64,000 bases of DNA from Spirochaetota bacterium (GTDB lineage Bacteria > Spirochaetota > Spirochaetia > Treponematales > UBA12059). Made by a program: the position numbers and the translations under genes. Shown here in pieces: positions 15,854-24,069 of this stretch. The notes beneath the pieces are model-generated. The model was not told where the DNA came from. It was given only the letters and a program-made list of their open reading frames with translations, and did no database searches. Every line of letters starts with the position of its first letter. Position 1 is the first letter of the stretch. The DNA is taken from NCBI GenBank assembly GCA_029560805.1, contig JAKQKE010000284.1, positions 1-64,000 on the forward strand. Direction: 5' to 3'.

Positions 15854-16666
15854 TCAGGCCGACTGGTCCGGCGCGGCAGCCGGCTTGCTGGCTATGCGCT
15901 CCGAGAAGCGGTACTGCTCGATGATAGAGACGAGCTCCGACGAGAACTGTAGCGCGACCCGCGCCTTCTGGACGCCGTTCTGTAGCCTGGCTACCGAGGC
16001 CACGGCGCCGGCCACCGTGAACTGGTAGCTCTGGAAGAACAGCTTGAGTAGGATAGGCTTGTCCTGCTCGAGGATCGGCCCGTTCATCGGCACGAGGAAG
16101 TCGGCCGTATCGCTGGCCAACGCGAACAGCGCGACCTTGGCCTGGGCCCCGGCGTAGCCTATCGTACAGTAGTTGTTGTAGCCCATCGTCTTGGCGGTAT
16201 CGGGGTTGATCGATATCGGCTTGCCCTTGTAGTCGTCGTACTCGACCTTGAGCCGGTCGAGCAGCATGAAGTAGTCGATCAGTGTCTGGACGAGGTCGGG
16301 CGGGCAGGGCTTGAAGAGGACGTCGATCAGCCCTATCGACTCGCGGCCCTTCATGGGGCTGACCGAGCGCAGGGTACAGCGGGCGAAGATCTTCATCGGG
16401 TTCTGGGCGTTGCCCGGCTGGAACACGAGGGTCAGGCCAGCCAGGCCGTTGACGTACTTCTGGAAGAAGGCCAGCTCCTCGCGGGAGAAGGACGCGACGA
16501 GGACCGCACCGGCCATCGATAGGCGGTACGGTACGCAAATGATCCCGTAGGTGTCGAGCTTGACGACGGTCTGGCCCGGCTTCAGGCCCATGCGGGCCTG
16601 GGCGAACGGCGTTATCGCGGCGGTTTCGTTCTGGTATTGGGCTAATAGGTCCGTTTGATGATGCAT
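15854..16666 (-). CDS. PilZN3/PilZ-like protein with eroded c-di-GMP motif
   Basis: 270 residues. The arrangement follows the spirochaete PilZ proteins with a PilZN3 N-terminal domain: an opening helix LLAQYQNE, a strand-rich N domain (~25-130), a linker with INPDTAKTMGYNN (equivalent to ITPETLRKLG), then a PilZ-like barrel. Where an active PilZ has Arg residues and DLSxxG, this one reads AKVALFALASDTADF, so I see no c-di-GMP-binding residues. It is the last gene of the eight-gene minus-strand run, 33 bp after the methyltransferase, and may be a structural or protein-binding relic. The family assignment is from memory of treponemal homologues. Confidence 0.6.
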   Translation of the reverse strand: MHHQTDLLAQYQNETAAITPFAQARMGLKPGQTVVKLDTYGIICVPYRLSMAGAVLVASFSREELAFFQKYVNGLAGLTLVFQPGNAQNPMKIFARCTLRSVSPMKGRESIGLIDVLFKPCPPDLVQTLIDYFMLLDRLKVEYDDYKGKPISINPDTAKTMGYNNYCTIGYAGAQAKVALFALASDTADFLVPMNGPILEQDKPILLKLFFQSYQFTVAGAVASVARLQNGVQKARVALQFSSELVSIIEQYRFSERIASKPAAAPDQSA

Positions 16667-16699: not shown

Positions 16700-17530
16700 T
16701 CAAGATCCGCGTTTGCGGGGCGGCGCCTTTCGATCGGGCGGCGCCTTTCGATCGGGCTGCGCCTTTCGATCGAAAGGCGATCCTCCGCGCCTGTCCCGGC
16801 CGCTGGCCCCGCCCCGGTTGCCGTCGGCGGCCTTCAGCAGGAATACCGTCGGCTTCTTGCCTATGCGCACGGGCCCGGCTTTCCAGGCGGCGGCAGTCAT
16901 GCGAACGATGCGCTCCTCCGGTGTCGATAGGCCGATCGCGGCGCAGAACACGGTATCGGGAGCCAGTGCGCAGGCCGCGCTGGCGACCATGGCGTCGTTG
17001 CGGTATGGCGTCTCGATGAAGGCCTGCGTCGAACCCTGCCGCCTCGAGTCGGCCTCGAGCGCGCGCAGGGCGGCCTCCCTGCCGGCCTGGTCTGGCGGTA
17101 GATAGCCGGCGAACGCGAAGCGCTGGCCCCCGAGGCCCGAGGCCATGACGGCCATCAGGATCGAGCTCGGGCCGGGCAGGGGGACGACTCTGATCCCCGC
17201 CTCGGCTGCCTCCGCCACCAGGGCCGCTCCCGGGTCGGCGACGCAGGGGCTACCGGCCTCCGACAGTATGGCCACGTCCCGCCCGGCCAGCAGGGGCGCC
17301 AGCAGCGCCCGCACATCCTCGGGCCGCGTATGCTCGTCCAGCACGCCGAAGCGCGACGCATCGAGGGCGTCCTGCGCCATGACGCGGCATAGGAAGCGCC
17401 TGGCGCTGCGCTCGTTCTCGACGACGAAGTCGCGAATGCCGGCCGCTATCCTGAGTACCCTCGGGGCCAGTTCGTCCGCCGGGTCGCCGTCGCCTATCGG
17501 CACCGGCACCAAATATAGTGAGCCGTTCAT
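16700..17530 (-). CDS. RsmI/YraL-type SAM-dependent (tetrapyrrole-methylase fold) methyltransferase
   Basis: 276 residues. The fold signature includes LSEAGSPCVADPGA, the PLPGPSS loop and ETPYRND. RsmI enzymes methylate the 2'-OH of C1402 in 16S rRNA. This variant opens SLYLVPVPIGDG and has ENERSARRFL, as in the shorter RsmI-paralogue group, so its exact target is uncertain. The last ~45 residues form a basic, repetitive tail (PDRKAP repeats) encoded by an 18-bp tandem repeat. The start overlaps the FAD-subunit stop by 4 bp. Confidence 0.82.
   Translation of the reverse strand: MNGSLYLVPVPIGDGDPADELAPRVLRIAAGIRDFVVENERSARRFLCRVMAQDALDASRFGVLDEHTRPEDVRALLAPLLAGRDVAILSEAGSPCVADPGAALVAEAAEAGIRVVPLPGPSSILMAVMASGLGGQRFAFAGYLPPDQAGREAALRALEADSRRQGSTQAFIETPYRNDAMVASAACALAPDTVFCAAIGLSTPEERIVRMTAAAWKAGPVRIGKKPTVFLLKAADGNRGGASGRDRRGGSPFDRKAQPDRKAPPDRKAPPRKRGS
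16720..16773 (-). repeat. 18-bp tandem repeat, three copies, inside the methyltransferase C-terminus
   Basis: Units of 18 bp at 16720-16737, 16738-16755 and 16756-16773 (GCGGCGCCTTTCGATCGG, third copy with three changes). The repeat is in frame and encodes six-residue PDRKAP-type repeats in the basic tail. Copy number could vary without shifting the frame. Confidence 0.9.
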
Positions 17531-18363
17531 CTCCCGCCTTCCTGGACGTTGGCCAGGAACGACATGACGTACGCGCCGAAGCGTTCGGCCAGCCTGGCCG
17601 GGAAACCAGCCTCGATCGCCTGTTCGCGCGCGGCCTCCTGGGCCTCCTCGACGTCCTTTACGGTCAACGGCAACCTCTTTCCTATCAGCGAAAGCTCGAG
17701 GGCGCGGTCGCGCGCCAGCGTCCTCCCCGACGCTATGAGCCGCAGCTCCGATATGGTCTCTTTCTCGAAACGGGCGGCGGCGGCGAAGGTCGACGCGAAG
17801 GCGTCCCCCTTCGTCGGCTCGCCGAGCCGGTGGAGCGCGAACGCGTCCCAGGGGGCGGTAGGAATGCGTATCCGGGTCAGCAGGGTAGCGGCCGGGAAGG
17901 CCGGTCGCCCGGAACCGTCGACGAGGGAGTGGATGCCGGTCCAGCGCGAGCCCGAGGCGTCGCGGAGCTCCACGGTCGCGTCCATACAGGCCAGGGACGG
18001 AAAACAGGTCATGAACGAGTCGCGCGAGGCGACGTTACCGCCGAGCGTGGCCAGATTGCGTACTGTAGCCGTGCCGACGAGCCCGATGGCGTCTCGCAGG
18101 GGTTGGAGCGCTAGGCTCCCCGGCAGGGCCTGTATCGTCGCCAGCCTGACGCAGGCGCCTAGTTCCAGGTAGCGGTCCGAGCGGCTGACGGCCCTCAGCT
18201 CGGGTATCCTACCGAGGTCGAGCACCGAGACCGGGGCGCCATCGCTACCGCGGGACGTCAGTATCAGCGTGCCGCCCGCCCAGGGCAGCGCGCCGGGTTG
18301 ACGCTTCAATACGGCGACGGCCTCCGCTATCGTCTGGGGCGCGGATACATCGTCAACGCGCAC
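17527..18363 (-). CDS. FAD-binding subunit, molybdenum-hydroxylase (CoxM/XdhB) type
   Basis: 278 residues. It has the FAD-binding landmarks of the xanthine dehydrogenase/CO dehydrogenase medium subunit: WAGGTLIL near the N-terminus, GTATVRNLATLGGNVAS in the middle, and a CO_deh_flav_C-like tail with CPxA-poor sequence. The usual role is to pass electrons from the [2Fe-2S] subunit to NAD or another acceptor. It overlaps the iron-sulfur gene by 11 bp and the methyltransferase by 4 bp, so it is part of one transcript. The substrate is unknown. Confidence 0.88.
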   Translation of the reverse strand: MRVDDVSAPQTIAEAVAVLKRQPGALPWAGGTLILTSRGSDGAPVSVLDLGRIPELRAVSRSDRYLELGACVRLATIQALPGSLALQPLRDAIGLVGTATVRNLATLGGNVASRDSFMTCFPSLACMDATVELRDASGSRWTGIHSLVDGSGRPAFPAATLLTRIRIPTAPWDAFALHRLGEPTKGDAFASTFAAAARFEKETISELRLIASGRTLARDRALELSLIGKRLPLTVKDVEEAQEAAREQAIEAGFPARLAERFGAYVMSFLANVQEGGR

Positions 18364-18838
18364 GGCCGTACTTCCCTCCGAGGCTCGACTCGAGCGCCGC
18401 CTTGACCGCCCCGAGGGCTCGCGACGGCGTGACGCAACGGCAGTATACCGAGGACAGTACCTCCATGATCTCCTCCTCGGAGGGGCGGACGGTCGCTTCG
18501 ATCAACGAGCCGGCGGCCATGAACAGCGCCGAGTCGCAGAAGCCGCATAGCTCGGCCCCCGCCTCGCGAAAGGAGCGTTCGACGGTCGCGAACGATTCGG
18601 TGCTCTTGAAGCCCTCGTAGGTGACGACCTCGGTGCCCCTCGCCTTGAAGGCGGGTACCATACAGGAATTGACCAGGAGCCCGTCGAGGAAGACGACGCA
18701 CTTGCCGCAGACGCCCTCGCGGCAATCGCTCATAAGGCTCGTCAGGTCGAAGCGCTCGCGTAGGAGATCGGATAGCCGCTCGAGGGGGTCGGCCTTCAGG
18801 CTGACGTCCTCTCCATTCAGGATGAATTCAACTATCAT
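18353..18838 (-). CDS. [2Fe-2S] subunit, molybdenum-hydroxylase (CoxS/XdhC) type
   Basis: 161 residues. All eight cluster cysteines are present: Cys39, 44, 47 and 59 for the plant-ferredoxin cluster (DCREGVCGKC...C) and Cys98, 101, 133 and 135 for the second cluster (LCGFC...CRC). The usual QCGFCTPG reads LCGFCDSA and the CRCTGY motif reads CRCVTP, so the surroundings of the second cluster are altered while its ligands are kept. Electron transfer therefore looks intact. It overlaps both neighbours by 11 bp. Confidence 0.9.
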   Translation of the reverse strand: MIVEFILNGEDVSLKADPLERLSDLLRERFDLTSLMSDCREGVCGKCVVFLDGLLVNSCMVPAFKARGTEVVTYEGFKSTESFATVERSFREAGAELCGFCDSALFMAAGSLIEATVRPSEEEIMEVLSSVYCRCVTPSRALGAVKAALESSLGGKYGRAR

Positions 18839-20897
18839 CGTCGACGCCCTCCGATCGGCGACAGGTCGGCAACGCGTTCCACGGCGAGTCGAGCGCCTGG
18901 CTCAGCGCGTTGGCGAACGCGGCGGGTACGAGCGAGTAGGCCAGCTCGCCTATGCCCTTGGGCTCGGCGTCGTCGTCGACGAACTCCACCTGAATGGGAG
19001 GTGCGTCCTTGATCCGCCAGAGGCCGTATCGCCTGAGGTCGCCAGGATCAGCCGGCCCGTCGGACAGGTCGAGGCACTCGGCGACGCAAAGCCCGAGCGC
19101 CACGGCGGCGTCGCGCTCGAGCGCCGCTGCGGCGTCCTCGCGCGACAGGATGCGGCCCGCCTTCGCCACGAGCCAGATGCCGCGTACCGGCGGAGCGGCG
19201 TCCACCGGGTCGAGCTCAAGCTCTACGACGGCGGCGCCCCATGACGCGTCGTCGAGGGGCGACTCGGGCGCGGCCTTGGCGGACCTAGCCCGCTGCGACT
19301 TCCTGACGGTGATCGGCAGCGCTTCCCTGAAGCGCTTGGAGGCCAGACCGTCGCAGGCGGAGCCTATCAGCCTCGTCACGACGCCGATCCGCCGCGAGAA
19401 CACGTTCGGCCCCGAGTCGGGTACCTCGTCGGTGCTGGGCGTCGCGACCTCCACCGCCTCGGGCGAGAGTCCGAGGGACGTCGCGGCTATCCGCTTCCAG
19501 ATCCTCGTCACGGCGCCCGAGCCCGACGCCACGCTCGAGCGGATGGTCAGCGTCGAGTCCTTCGACAGGGTCACTTCGACCGAGGGAGCCTGGGCGTCGC
19601 GGCAGGAAAGCGCCGTGGCCGGCCGCTGAGGGCCGAAGGCCAGCCCGATGCCGTAGCCGGGCGGGGACGACGGGTCGGGGCGTCGTTTGCGTATCAGCTC
19701 GAACGACGATCGCTTGCGCGGGTAGTCGCTGATGGCGAGCAGCCTGTCGCAGACCGCATCGAGCGGCGCGCCCTTCCTGAGCGGTGGGCCGAGCGTCTGG
19801 TCGCCGCGCCTGGCCACGTTCATGGCGCGCCATTCGTATGGATCCATACCGGCGGCGTCGGCCAGGTCCTCGGCCAGGCGCTCGACGGCGAAGGCTACCG
19901 GCCCGGTGCCGAGCCCCATGAAGGCGCCCATCGGCGGCAGGTCCGTCGAGACCGCCCGGGCCGCGACGCGCAGGGATGGGCAGGCGTAGGCGCCGGCGAC
20001 GGCCTTGGCGGCCCGCTCGACCAGCTCCGCGCCGAACGGCGCGTAGGCGCCGACGTTGATCATCACGCTCGCGTCCATCGCTACGAGTTTGCCAGCCTCG
20101 TCGAGTCCGGCCCGGTACGAGACGAGGGTCGGCGCCCGTTTCGTCGTGTACATGAAGTCGTCGGTCCTCGATAGGAGCAGGAGCGCGTTCTTGCCGCTCA
20201 GCCTGGCAGCGATCGCCGCGTGGCAGGCCAGGAGCGACGGGTACCATAGCTTGCCGTCCAGGTGGGAGCCGAGCGACGTGGTCCGGACCACCACCTCATC
20301 CTTCCTGACTCCGAGCGCCTGGGCGACGGCGTCCCTGGCCTGGAAGGGCCATTGAGTCGACGAGAAAACGATCAGCTTGTCGTAGTCAAAGCCGGCCGCG
20401 GCGCCCTGGGGCTCCGGGTAGTAATGGTCCTGCGGACCCATCCTGTATTCTCCGTCGACCACCCGGGCGGCCTTGGCCAGCGCCGCGTCGACGGAGCCGC
20501 TATCGGTCGAGTAGGCGGCGACGAGTCTCCTCGACTCGCAGGCCTCGTATCCGAACGACGCCGGCTCCTCGTCGACGCGTACCGCCGTCATCGATACGGC
20601 CTCGGCTACCCTGAGCCGGTCCGGCCCGACGATCAGCGCCACCGGCTCGCCGCGGTACGCGACGCGCCCCGAGGCCAGGACGGGCACCGAGGCGCCTATA
20701 CTGTCGATACGGGCCGAGCCTGGGATATCGTCCGCCGTGACGCTCCGGTAGCCGCGTGGCAGGTGCGGCACGCTGATGGATCGTATGGCTCCCCTCGATA
20801 CGGGCGAGCGCACCGTCCCGACGTAGACCGCGTCGAGGAGAGGGAAATCCGACAGGCGCCCTACCATCGAGAGGTCGCTCGCCCGGGCCGTCCTCAT
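18828..20897 (-). CDS. Molybdopterin-binding large subunit-like protein (CoxL/XdhA type), altered cofactor loops
   Basis: 689 residues, slightly short for the family. The start shows the xanthine-dehydrogenase a/b hammerhead (LDAVYVGTVRSPVSRGAI). Further blocks align well: FSSTQWPFQARDAVAQALG, AERLAEDLADAAGMDPYEWR, SGPNVFSRR and PKGIGELAYSLVPAA, whose Glu is the catalytic base position. The cofactor loops differ: GGFGGK reads LGSHLDGK, AYRGFGxPQ reads AFMGLGTGP, and the QG.. loop near GSGAVTRIW lacks the glutamine. Either the substrate or cofactor handling is unusual or the subunit no longer binds Moco. It overlaps DegT by 4 bp upstream. Confidence 0.82.
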   Translation of the reverse strand: MRTARASDLSMVGRLSDFPLLDAVYVGTVRSPVSRGAIRSISVPHLPRGYRSVTADDIPGSARIDSIGASVPVLASGRVAYRGEPVALIVGPDRLRVAEAVSMTAVRVDEEPASFGYEACESRRLVAAYSTDSGSVDAALAKAARVVDGEYRMGPQDHYYPEPQGAAAGFDYDKLIVFSSTQWPFQARDAVAQALGVRKDEVVVRTTSLGSHLDGKLWYPSLLACHAAIAARLSGKNALLLLSRTDDFMYTTKRAPTLVSYRAGLDEAGKLVAMDASVMINVGAYAPFGAELVERAAKAVAGAYACPSLRVAARAVSTDLPPMGAFMGLGTGPVAFAVERLAEDLADAAGMDPYEWRAMNVARRGDQTLGPPLRKGAPLDAVCDRLLAISDYPRKRSSFELIRKRRPDPSSPPGYGIGLAFGPQRPATALSCRDAQAPSVEVTLSKDSTLTIRSSVASGSGAVTRIWKRIAATSLGLSPEAVEVATPSTDEVPDSGPNVFSRRIGVVTRLIGSACDGLASKRFREALPITVRKSQRARSAKAAPESPLDDASWGAAVVELELDPVDAAPPVRGIWLVAKAGRILSREDAAAALERDAAVALGLCVAECLDLSDGPADPGDLRRYGLWRIKDAPPIQVEFVDDDAEPKGIGELAYSLVPAAFANALSQALDSPWNALPTCRRSEGVDDDS

Positions 20898-22063
20898 GCG
20901 TGCAGCGCCTCCGCGACGGCTAGGACGGCGTCGGCGACGCGCCGCGCCGCGTCGAGTCCCATGCCCTGCCAGATCGGCAGGCTGAGGGTGCGCTCGAACA
21001 TGGCCATGGCGTTGGGCATGGATCCCGGCTCGAGGCCGTAGCGCCCCGCGTAGTAGGGCATGGTGTGGAGCGGGATGAAATGGACCGACGTGCCGACGCC
21101 CCGCTCGGCGAGCGACTCGATGAACTCGTCCCTGGCTAGGCCTCCGCGCTCCGGCAGGGTACGCAGCGAGTATAGGTGCCAGGCGTGCCCATCGCCCCTC
21201 GGCGGAAGTTCGAGCCCTCGAACACCCGAGAAGGCCTCGTCGTACAGGGCCGCGATCGCCCGTCGCTCCTCGAGGAAGCGCTCGGCCTTGGTCAGCTGAA
21301 CCCGTCCGATCGCGGCGAGCAGGTCGGGTAGGTTGTACTTGAAGCCGGCCTCGACGACCGAGTAGCGCCAGGACGCCTTCTTGGCGGTATAACGGTCCCA
21401 GGCCGCCCGGTCGAAGCCGTGCATACGCATCTTCTCGGCGCGGGCCGCCAGGCGCCCGTCCCGCGTGACGAGCATGCCGCCCTCGCCGGTCGTGATGGTC
21501 TTGGTGGCGTAGAACGAGTAGACGCCCACGTCGCCTATCGCGCCGGCGTAGCCATCGGCGGTCTTCGACGGGAAGGCGTGGGCCGCGTCCTCGACGAGAG
21601 CGCAGCCGTAGCGATCGGCTAAGGCGCGCAGGGCGCGAAGGTCGCAGGGCAGCCCGCCGACGTGGACGGCGACGATCGCCCGGCAGTTCTTGGTCGTCGC
21701 CAGGAGCCTGCCGAGCGCGTCGGAGTCGATGTTGTACGATCCGGGCGCCACGTCGCAGAAGGCCACCTCCGCGCCCAGGTGGCGTATCACGGCGGCGCTC
21801 GAGGTGAAGGTGTAGGGGCTGGTGACGACGACGTCGCCCGGGCCGATGCCGAGCGCCTCGAGCGCCAGGTGCAGGCCGCTCGTGGCCGAGTTGACGGCCA
21901 GGGCGCGGGGCGCGCCGACGAAGTCCGCGAATTCCTTCTCGAAGGCCAGCGCCTCGGCCCCGGTGGTAAGCCAGCCCGAGCGCATCACGCGGAGGACGGC
22001 TTCCTCCTCCTCGGGACCGATCGACGGCCGCGCGAACGGGATGAAGTCAGTATTCGGGTTCAT
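20894..22063 (-). CDS. DegT/DnrJ/EryC1/StrS-family sugar aminotransferase
   Basis: 389 residues. PLP-dependent aminotransferases of this family convert 4-keto (or 3-keto) nucleotide sugars to amino sugars for surface glycans or glycosylation. Seen: SATSGLHLALEALG (phosphate-binding), VEDAAHAFPS, and the Schiff-base lysine Lys188 in FYATKTITTGEGG. A C-terminal HFIPLHTMPYY block is also typical. The gene overlaps the CapD-type dehydratase by 17 bp, and a 4-keto-6-deoxy-sugar product of that enzyme would be its natural substrate. Annotated in some genomes as a spore-coat polysaccharide protein (SpsC). Confidence 0.93.
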   Translation of the reverse strand: MNPNTDFIPFARPSIGPEEEEAVLRVMRSGWLTTGAEALAFEKEFADFVGAPRALAVNSATSGLHLALEALGIGPGDVVVTSPYTFTSSAAVIRHLGAEVAFCDVAPGSYNIDSDALGRLLATTKNCRAIVAVHVGGLPCDLRALRALADRYGCALVEDAAHAFPSKTADGYAGAIGDVGVYSFYATKTITTGEGGMLVTRDGRLAARAEKMRMHGFDRAAWDRYTAKKASWRYSVVEAGFKYNLPDLLAAIGRVQLTKAERFLEERRAIAALYDEAFSGVRGLELPPRGDGHAWHLYSLRTLPERGGLARDEFIESLAERGVGTSVHFIPLHTMPYYAGRYGLEPGSMPNAMAMFERTLSLPIWQGMGLDAARRVADAVLAVAEALHA

Positions 22064-23534
22064 CGGGAAGCTCCTCTACCGTGGGTATGAAGGACCTGAG
22101 CGCGGCCCGAAGACGCCTGCGGTTACGGTACGCGTCCGGCCTATCGTCGCTCCTGAAGCATATCGGCTCGAGCGCGCGCATGGCAGCCTCGAGGTCGAAG
22201 CGGGGCCCATGCCGCTCCAGGCGGTTGATCTTGTGGAATTCCGTAGCGGCGAGGCTCTCGTCGGGCGAGTACAGCCGCTCCTCGAGGCGCTCGCCGGGCC
22301 TGAGCCCGATGTACTCGATGGCGATGTCATCGTAGGGTCTGAGGCCGGAGAAGCGTATGACCTGCTCGGCTAGCTCGCGTATCAGTATGGGCTCGCCCAT
22401 GTCCAGGAGGTACGATTCGCCGCCCAAGCCGACGCCGCCGGTCTTGAGCACGAGGGAGCAGGCCTCGGGGATGGTCATGAAGTATCGGCTGGCGGCGGGG
22501 TCGGTGACGGTTACCGGGCCGCCGCGCTCGACCTGGCCCTTGAACAGGGGCAGGATGGAGCCGCGCGAACCGAGCACGTTGCCGAAGCGTACGACCATGT
22601 AGTGCTCCCCGGCCCCGGCCCGATCCTGCGCGTCGAGCACGAGGCGCTCCGACAGGAACTTCGAGGCGCCGTAGACGCACAGCGGCTCGACCGCCTTATC
22701 GGTACTGACGAGCACGAAACGCTTGACGCCGGACGCGAGGCAGGCGCTTACGAGGTTCCGGGTGCCGAACGCATTGTTCTCGATGGCGGCGACCGTGTTG
22801 GCCTCCATCATCGGGACGTGCTTGTACGCGGCGGCGTGAAACACGACGTCGGCCTTGAGCCTGCGGCAAACGTCGGTCATGTAGTCGCGGTCCTTGAGCT
22901 CTCCTATCACGGGGACAATGGCCGTCGACACGCCGACGCCTCCCGACTGGAGGCCCCTGAGCTCGCGGTCTATCTGGTAGATCGAGTTCTCGCCGTGGCC
23001 GAACAGGTACAGGCGCTCGACTCCGGCCGACAGGAGCTGCCTCGCGAGCTCGGAGCCTATCGAACCGCCGGCCCCGGTGACGATCACGCGCTTTCCGGCC
23101 AACCACTCGATGCTCTTCTTGAGTCCTATCGAGACGGGGCTGCGCCCGAGCAGGTCCTGTGGGTCTATCTCGCGGGCCTGGACGAGGTGGGCATCGCCCT
23201 CGACTATCTGCGCTACATCCGGGAGTATGCGTATCCGCGCGAAGCCCGCGTGCTTGAGCGTGAAGTACAGCTCGCGCAACAGTTCCCTCGGTGCGCTTGG
23301 CATGGCGATGATGGCTTCGTCGGCCGGCTCCCTCGCAAGCAGCCTGACCACGTCGCGGATGGGGCCGAGTACTGGCACGCCGTCGACGCGCCTGCCCAGC
23401 TTGCCCTCGTCGTCGTCGAGGAAGGCGACGATGGTGCCGAGGACCGCCTTGGCCCGGATCTCCCGCGCGATCGCGCGTCCGGCGAAGCCGGCGCCGATGA
23501 TGTATATCCTAGGGTTGTCGGGATTCATCTCCAT
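22047..23534 (-). CDS. CapD/FlaA1-type UDP-sugar 4,6-dehydratase, soluble form
   Basis: 495 residues. It has two Rossmann modules: an N-terminal CoA/NAD-binding-like domain (IYIIGAGFAGRAIA, ~10-130) and an extended SDR domain with GAGGSIGSELARQL (153-167) and the catalytic Tyr288-Lys292 (VYGASK). Related enzymes make UDP-4-keto-6-deoxy-hexoses for capsule, LPS-like glycans or protein glycosylation. The four membrane helices that precede the N domain in WbpM/PglF are missing, so it should be cytosolic. Most homologues have Met rather than Tyr at 288. It overlaps the NusG-like gene by 26 bp; an internal ATG at 23528 is also possible. Confidence 0.92.
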   Translation of the reverse strand: MEMNPDNPRIYIIGAGFAGRAIAREIRAKAVLGTIVAFLDDDEGKLGRRVDGVPVLGPIRDVVRLLAREPADEAIIAMPSAPRELLRELYFTLKHAGFARIRILPDVAQIVEGDAHLVQAREIDPQDLLGRSPVSIGLKKSIEWLAGKRVIVTGAGGSIGSELARQLLSAGVERLYLFGHGENSIYQIDRELRGLQSGGVGVSTAIVPVIGELKDRDYMTDVCRRLKADVVFHAAAYKHVPMMEANTVAAIENNAFGTRNLVSACLASGVKRFVLVSTDKAVEPLCVYGASKFLSERLVLDAQDRAGAGEHYMVVRFGNVLGSRGSILPLFKGQVERGGPVTVTDPAASRYFMTIPEACSLVLKTGGVGLGGESYLLDMGEPILIRELAEQVIRFSGLRPYDDIAIEYIGLRPGERLEERLYSPDESLAATEFHKINRLERHGPRFDLEAAMRALEPICFRSDDRPDAYRNRRRLRAALRSFIPTVEELPDEPEY

Positions 23535-24069
23535 CGCTGCCCTCGGTTCCTTTCGCCGCCCGGTCGAGTATCTCGAAACCCATGTCGACGAGGAACGAGT
23601 TCTCGCACATGTCCAGGCGTATCTTGGCCCGGCGCTTGCGCGCGTCGACCCTGACGATCAGGCCCTCGAGCCCCTTGAGCGGGCCCTCGACGACGACGAT
23701 GCGATCGTCCGCGTCGAAACGTACCTTCGATATATCGGCAACTTTCCCGAACGACATGAAGTGGGCGAGTAGCCTCCGGTCCTTCTCCTTGACCGGCCTC
23801 GGCTCGGCGTTGTTCGGGAGCGCCCGTACGAAGTTCCTCGAGCCACGCAATAACCAGCGCTGGTCGTCGCTCAGGCGATCGGCGTCGGTCGCGATGAAGA
23901 CGTAGCCCGGGAAGAGGGGGCGCTCCTCGCGCCGTACCTTGCCCGCCCGCCGTATCTCGAGGGCCCGCTTGGGCACCATAGCCTTGGCCTCGACGCGCGG
24001 ATCGGCCGATAGCGCGTCGGCGAACTCATCCTCTTTGCCGGTCCATACCTGTACGGCGAAATACTCCAT
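23509..24069 (-). CDS. NusG-family antitermination factor, LoaP/RfaH-like
   Basis: 186 residues. The NGN domain has the RNA-polymerase-binding block PLFPGYVFIATD, followed by a KOW domain (VVEGPLKGLEGLIVRVDARK). Housekeeping NusG normally sits with secE and rplK. Here the gene heads a sugar-enzyme operon and opens EYFAVQVWTGKEDEF, as in specialised paralogues such as LoaP, UpxY or RfaH. It probably promotes read-through of its own long operon. The ribosome site GGAGG precedes the ATG. Downstream genes overlap in series to 16700. Confidence 0.85.
   Translation of the reverse strand: MEYFAVQVWTGKEDEFADALSADPRVEAKAMVPKRALEIRRAGKVRREERPLFPGYVFIATDADRLSDDQRWLLRGSRNFVRALPNNAEPRPVKEKDRRLLAHFMSFGKVADISKVRFDADDRIVVVEGPLKGLEGLIVRVDARKRRAKIRLDMCENSFLVDMGFEILDRAAKGTEGSDGDESRQP

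Follow-up and report, generated by a model that had tools for sequence, protein, structure and literature searches.

A xanthine oxidase-fold complex of spirochaetes that has probably lost its molybdenum cofactor

Does a complex built like a molybdenum hydroxylase still use molybdenum when the loops that should hold its cofactor have been rewritten? The question is raised by three overlapping genes in a 64,000-nucleotide stretch of a Spirochaetota bacterium (order Treponematales; assembly GCA_029560805.1, contig JAKQKE010000284.1, positions 1 to 64,000; hereafter the window), which encode a large subunit of the xanthine oxidase (XO) type together with an iron–sulphur (Fe-S) subunit and a flavin adenine dinucleotide (FAD) subunit. 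The original prediction held that the large subunit keeps the Mo-hydroxylase fold with altered cofactor-binding loops, and offered two explanations: a new substrate class with changed contacts to the molybdenum cofactor (Moco), or an electron-transfer protein that has dropped Moco. Comparison with relatives within and beyond the order leads us to the view that the complex is very probably Moco-free, a state well supported by sequence and phylogeny, while its present function can be proposed only tentatively.

The fold itself is retained, as predicted. Among Pfam profiles, the window large subunit matched MoCoBD_1 with 193.6 bits, MoCoBD_2 only over model positions 24–131 of 283, and Ald_Xan_dh_C slightly below the cut-off. 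An AlphaFold2 (AF2) model, built from 46 aligned rows taken from the window and related loci only, reached a mean predicted local distance difference test score (pLDDT) of 89.4 and a predicted template modelling score (pTM) of 0.90. Its structural neighbours (Foldseek, VIA-align 2) were XO-family enzymes, the nearest being R. capsulatus xanthine dehydrogenase (XDH; Z 37.3, root-mean-square deviation 2.6, 663 residues aligned). The GGxFGGK, RGFG and GQG sites, which we take to contact Moco in XO-family enzymes, all read differently in the window protein (Table 1). In phmmer alignments to R. capsulatus and human XDH, GSHLDGK(L) stands opposite GGGFGGK(E), AFMGLG opposite AFRGFG, and ASGSGA opposite MGQGL. 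The strings named in the original prediction, LGSHLDGK in place of GGFGGK and AFMGLGTGP in place of AYRGFGxPQ, are both present in the open reading frame (ORF), and the conserved Gln of the QGxGT loop is indeed missing.

Loop erasure turned out to be common to all relatives compared. The large subunit was found in 57 of 58 related genomes and, with fragments excluded (G010 and two pieces from G019), 55 family rows were compared with 26 canonical paralogues belonging to the same order. The pattern GG[GAS]FG[GA]K occurred in 0/55 family rows versus 26/26 canonical paralogues, the Arg of RGFG (scored as RGFG or RAYG) in 0/55 versus 25/26, and GQ in 0/55 versus 24/26. The window protein does retain the catalytic-base Glu of PKGIGEL, as predicted, yet across the family this residue varies, being found in 37 of 54 rows (replaced elsewhere by D, N, T or A) against all 26 canonical paralogues. 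A further twelve-position comparison tells the same story: residues with ≥95% conservation among canonical paralogues fall below 15% in a 38-row core family (defined by excluding 12 rows of family f3 and G013, G030, G036, G044 and G049), and most of the twelve sit in the Moco loops, positions 211, 213, 214, 327, 460, 498 and 500 lying in or beside them. A new residue, W183, is near-constant (54/55 family rows; 10/11 rows outside the order), and the alignment suggests that bulky residues, chiefly this Trp beside the old active-site Gln, probably fill the Moco cavity.

The erased sequences also group together. A careful 48-row tree (excluded: two near-duplicates, G009, G030can) placed the 29 erased rows, which extend to other families of the class, on one side of a branch with 100/100 support, recovered in 100% of 200 bootstrap trees, and a quicker 79-row tree, from which G041 and G047 were excluded, gave the same erased/canonical split within the order. 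The simplest reading of this unrooted split is that erasure arose once. Twenty further loci from the phylum comprised 11 loop-erased proteins (families f6, f9, f10, f11, f12, f13 and f15) and nine canonical proteins of the 'QCP' type. The spirochaete 'QCP'-type XO proteins (G023 L042, G311 L213, G382 L209 and others) are among the top-scoring canonical relatives and share the order large–Fe-S–FAD; unlike the window family, 10/10 keep GGxFGGK, RGFG, GQG and the Glu. They lie opposite the erased rows across the 100/100 branch, without forming one clade in the 48-row tree. Taken together, these data support a history in which a three-subunit Mo hydroxylase of the XO family would have lost Moco in an ancestor within the class.

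The same loop erasure is found in genomes with and without detectable Moco synthesis. Profile searches of the 58 relatives found MoaC in 33, the C-terminal domain of MoaA in the same 33, and MoeA_N in 31; the MoaA matches were mostly under the Pfam cut-off (5/33 above it), yet fell in the same genomes as MoaC, and each search was positive in 11 of 14 control genomes. In the remaining 25 of 58 relatives, MoaA, MoaC and MoeA all went undetected by these profiles, and the large subunit was retained in 25/25, closed genomes and a probable T. pallidum (G032) included. Four of these 25 are less than 90% complete (G006, G010, G017 and G047), and three drafts that carry canonical paralogues (G033, G052 and G044) are weak evidence, though still counted. 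Across the order, 218 genomes at least 90% complete yielded MoaC in 61 and MoeA in 48, with neither found in 155; the large-subunit profile matched 215 of the 218, 198 of them at E ≤ 1e-100. These order-wide counts are only a guide, since the profile cannot separate the nearest canonical type (canonical G023b scored 502 bits and other canonical proteins at most 309, the lowest family row 348). Twenty-one genomes assembled on one to three contigs had no match to MoaC or MoeA, and all 21 matched the large-subunit profile; the loops were inspected directly in eight of them (G024, G027, G031, G032, G046, G053, G054 and G057). Beyond the order, MoaC was found in 2 of the 11 genomes hosting erased proteins (G382 and G379).

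In Moco-less genomes the large subunit is under purifying selection and shows no decay. Ratios of non-synonymous to synonymous substitution (dN/dS; Nei–Gojobori-type count) were 0.055, 0.094, 0.090 and 0.173 for paired Moco-less genomes that are closed or on two contigs, so the gene is not decaying; the neighbouring aminotransferase gave 0.079–0.132.

The window genome itself is ambiguous on this point. No match to MoaA, MoaC or MoeA was found in its 304-contig assembly; MoaC and MoeA occur in 6/7 of its congeners, and it also encodes four canonical XO-like proteins. In one congener (G003) all three Moco genes are clustered within ~2.5 kb, so a single missing contig could account for the absence, and we rejected it as evidence. 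Two side observations come from other genomes. The closed genome G031, without Moco genes, carries an XO-like gene of canonical type that contains an in-frame TAG (G031:C1:670723-671844, L065), possibly a dying molybdoenzyme gene. In G122, a MoaC match covers about half of the model and contains one in-frame TGA (G122:C1:1142073-1142306), perhaps marking a Moco pathway under loss.

What would a Moco-free complex do? The partner subunits offer an indication. An Fe-S gene lies nearby in 53 of 57 loci and an FAD gene in 52; the FAD gene of G042 is on a separate contig, and elsewhere a missing partner coincides with a contig end that truncates the locus. The FAD subunit, too, has no match in the three genomes that lack the large subunit (G045, G083 and G086). 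The window Fe-S subunit contains eight cysteines and no more, each at a [2Fe-2S] position, in agreement with the original prediction. The full set aligns in 46 of 54 family rows; in five rows from a single genus the last cysteine pair is shifted. Outside the order, the eight are complete in 10/11. The FAD motifs are near-invariant (G109 in 53/53 rows, T106 in 50/53, R102 in 50/53), and outside the order L215 deviates from the motif AGGT. With ligands and motifs kept in most members, the complex most likely acts as an oxidoreductase or electron relay that uses flavin and Fe-S clusters on a plugged XO scaffold. That the complex is both Moco-free and redox-active through FAD and Fe-S is a combined reading that we favour with some hesitation, placing it slightly short of an even chance. 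For the second option of the original prediction, the loss of Moco is thus strongly supported by family-wide erasure, retention in Moco-less genomes and purifying selection; the electron-transfer half may apply to those members, the majority, that keep Fe-S ligands and FAD motifs, two others being without one or both clusters.

Neighbouring genes point, more weakly, to a pathway. Within the 57 loci, genes for LoaP, a nucleotide-sugar dehydratase and a sugar aminotransferase lie nearby in 36, 42 and 44, respectively, some of the misses being contig ends; beyond the order, the dehydratase and aminotransferase genes adjoin 8 of 11 erased large subunits. The overlap of the trio with these three genes hints that the complex takes part in building or modifying an amino-sugar glycoconjugate, and it is possible, if doubtful, that the complex serves this adjacent pathway. 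The association between the trio and the sugar genes is old and non-obligate. The neighbours also prompted us to consider a pyridoxamine phosphate-dependent sugar C-3 dehydrase/reductase (E1/E3) pair. In E1/E3 systems, the DegT-fold partner has His in place of the Lys that binds pyridoxal phosphate (PLP). The DegT protein of these loci keeps the PLP Lys (39/44 loci, the other 5 unmatched by the pattern; 8/8 outside the order), and the pair was dropped as an assignment for the family. Separately, a LoaP-like gene is likewise found immediately 5' of the trio in lineages that lack the sugar genes.

Several observations weigh against a Moco-free redox complex tied to sugar metabolism. The core-family loop HLDGKLWYP is conserved in a manner compatible with a ligand site. 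A closed genome without MoaA, MoaC or MoeA (G024) has, besides the erased complex, a canonical-looking XO trio (L064:3748-8986) flanked by XdhC- and MocA-like genes (named by eye), so missing Moco genes alone are no proof that Moco is not used, and the argument for a Moco-free state is made by the erased loops in combination with the gene distribution. Two members (G049 and G036) are each one Fe-S ligand short; the probable T. pallidum genome has H, N, S and Y instead of all four plant-type cluster cysteines, with the four of the second cluster kept (L056:10157-10621); and the Fe-S homologue of the single-contig genome G319 (L207:8061-8597), which adjoins intact FAD and large subunits, is without seven of the eight ligands. 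Given these losses, at least some members must have a function beyond electron relay. In eight genomes of family f4 neither the dehydratase nor the aminotransferase gene lies beside the trio, and seven of the eight have no close dehydratase match anywhere: searches gave none genome-wide in G033, G047, G038 and G044 and weak matches only in G052, G049 and G030. The eighth, G036, has a more distant one. Conversely, G045 has close dehydratase and aminotransferase matches and no trio. A test for an obligate link of the trio to these two genes found none, in view of such f4 genomes and of G045. The G024 canonical trio, with its loops intact, is in its own right a candidate orphan molybdoprotein.

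The alternative that survives best, although we consider it rather unlikely, is that the large subunit is still catalytic, its former Moco cleft accommodating a different ligand (a nucleotide sugar from the adjacent pathway, for instance) and FAD and Fe-S supplying or taking electrons. Such a re-purposed pocket would fit the 87–97% conservation of D214, W218, Y219, P220 and S221 in the 38 core rows and the dehydratase and aminotransferase genes that adjoin the trio in additional families of the class. Mean pairwise identity in the loops and in the rest of the protein was 0.60 and 0.37 for canonical proteins (35 rows) and 0.44 and 0.37 for the family outside f3 (43 rows), where the loops are thus slightly more conserved. 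The corresponding values were 0.30 and 0.35 in the Moco-less treponemes of f3 (12 rows) and 0.26 and 0.26 in members outside the order (11 rows): loop identity in these most-diverged members is not above that of the rest, and the extra constraint on the loops is therefore gone there. Moreover, Y219, P220, D214 and S221 are kept in only 8–33% of the 12 Moco-less treponemes, and the trio persists without sugar genes in several lineages.

We also regard as improbable a scaffold, assembly or regulatory complex whose conserved role is structural or lies in protein–protein contacts, with redox activity secondary or lost. It would make sense of the stepwise stripping of cofactors from otherwise intact proteins (the Moco loops in all members, the plant-type ligands in the probable T. 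pallidum, seven of eight ligands in G319) and of the 17 of 54 rows in which Asp, Asn, Thr or Ala stands in for the catalytic Glu, but the cysteines complete in 46/54 rows and the near-invariant FAD motifs are difficult to account for if most members make no use of redox chemistry. Far less probable is the first option of the original prediction, in which the enzyme would still bind Moco through altered contacts and act on a new substrate. The host genus makes Moco, Q182 and the Glu are kept in the window protein, and G024 offers an orphan canonical XO; however, all three loop signatures are gone in 55/55 rows, identically so in Moco-plus and Moco-less genomes, the 21 genomes on one to three contigs without MoaC and MoeA match the profile, two divergent sets of members conserve the loops no better than the rest, and no proven Moco enzyme with the same loops was found among anything examined. 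A decaying relic of a lost molybdoenzyme, to which the degenerate loops and the few members short of Fe-S ligands might point, can practically be dismissed in view of the long open frames throughout, dN/dS values similar to those of the neighbouring aminotransferase, and matches at E ≤ 1e-100 in 198/218 genomes.

As shown in Table 1, the trio lies within a string of overlapping genes in the order LoaP, dehydratase, aminotransferase, large subunit, Fe-S subunit, FAD subunit and RsmI. LoaP is a putative antiterminator, assigned by its profile match. Downstream of rsmI, a PilZN3-domain protein is encoded at 15854-16666, and such a gene is nearby in 21/57 loci.

Table 1. Genes of the overlapping string and altered sites of the large subunit; positions are those of the window.
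Feature	Positions	Strand	Description	Evidence
LoaP-type NusG paralogue	23509..24069	(-)	First in the overlapping gene string	NF033641, 148.1 bits, cut-off 125
PseB/FlaA1-like nucleotide-sugar 4,6-dehydratase	22047..23534	(-)		
DegT-family sugar aminotransferase	20894..22063	(-)	PLP Lys present (YATKTITTGEGG)	
Large subunit	18828..20897	(-)	XO-fold protein, 689 aa, Moco loops erased	ORF, Pfam, phmmer, AF2, structure comparison, alignment
T181-Q182-W183	20349..20357	(-)	Canonical active-site Gln retained, then family-specific Trp	
Residues 207-221	20235..20279	(-)	TSLGSHLDGKLWYPS, replacing the GGxFGGK(E) Moco loop	
Residues 324-333	19899..19928	(-)	GAFMGLGTGP, replacing (A)FRGFGGPQ; Arg lost	
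Residues 454-465	19503..19538	(-)	SSVASGSGAVTR, replacing the GQG loop; Gln lost	
Residues 492-503	19389..19424	(-)	VPDSGPNVFSRR, replacing the canonical ...TAAS-type loop	
Residues 646-655	18933..18962	(-)	PKGIGELAYS; canonical catalytic Glu present, not family-constant	
2x[2Fe-2S] subunit	18353..18838	(-)	161 aa, eight ligand cysteines	ORF, Pfam, alignment
FAD subunit	17527..18363	(-)	278 aa; motifs AGGT and RNLATLGGN	PF00941 (103.7 bits)
RsmI-like methyltransferase	16700..17530	(-)	Overlapping, downstream	

With XO-family Mo hydroxylases such as R. capsulatus XDH, bovine XO, PucCDE and 4-hydroxybenzoyl-CoA reductase, the complex shares the fold of the large subunit, the Fe-S and FAD partners and the three-gene set. 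It differs from them in the absent GGxFGGK, RGFG and GQG loops, the partly unmatched MoCoBD_2, the inconstant Glu, and its occurrence in organisms without detected Moco synthesis. One point of comparison is H. pseudoflava carbon monoxide dehydrogenase 1ffu, presumably a preparation of a true Moco enzyme, unlike the window family. Its PDB title describes it as lacking Mo-pyranopterin (Z 36.2 to our model), and the XO fold stands there without Mo-pterin. A survey of molybdenum utilisation described XO-family orphan molybdoproteins in genomes without a complete Moco pathway and named a Mo-independent form as one possibility (PMC6147048); in the portions of that survey bearing on them, no sequence feature marking such proteins is reported, whereas the window family has a clear one. 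In T. pallidum, TPASS_0079 and TPASS_0081 were annotated in silico as xanthine dehydrogenase (PMC4403809), with neither the absence of Moco nor the erased loops mentioned in the relevant part of that account; most probably they belong to the same operon as in G032. No paper treating the complex as Moco-free was found in the open-licence full text searched.

At its fullest, the scenario would be one in which a Mo enzyme was turned a single time, in an ancestor within the spirochaete class, into a Mo-free machine that runs on flavin and Fe-S clusters and works in amino-sugar glycoconjugate biosynthesis. Much of the class, the syphilis spirochaete probably among it, would have retained the complex, and some lineages would have stripped its cofactors one by one; we put this forward as conceivable rather than probable. 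For molybdenum biology, the survey, in the part concerned, did not settle if orphan molybdoproteins are Mo-independent (PMC6147048). The family supplies a sequence mark in the form of one erased-loop clade, under purifying selection in closed Moco-less genomes, and makes the orphan question directly testable. It is also a warning against reading 'xanthine dehydrogenase' annotations in treponemes as signs of Mo use, and it draws attention to a conserved, uncharacterised complex of spirochaetes, pathogens among them.

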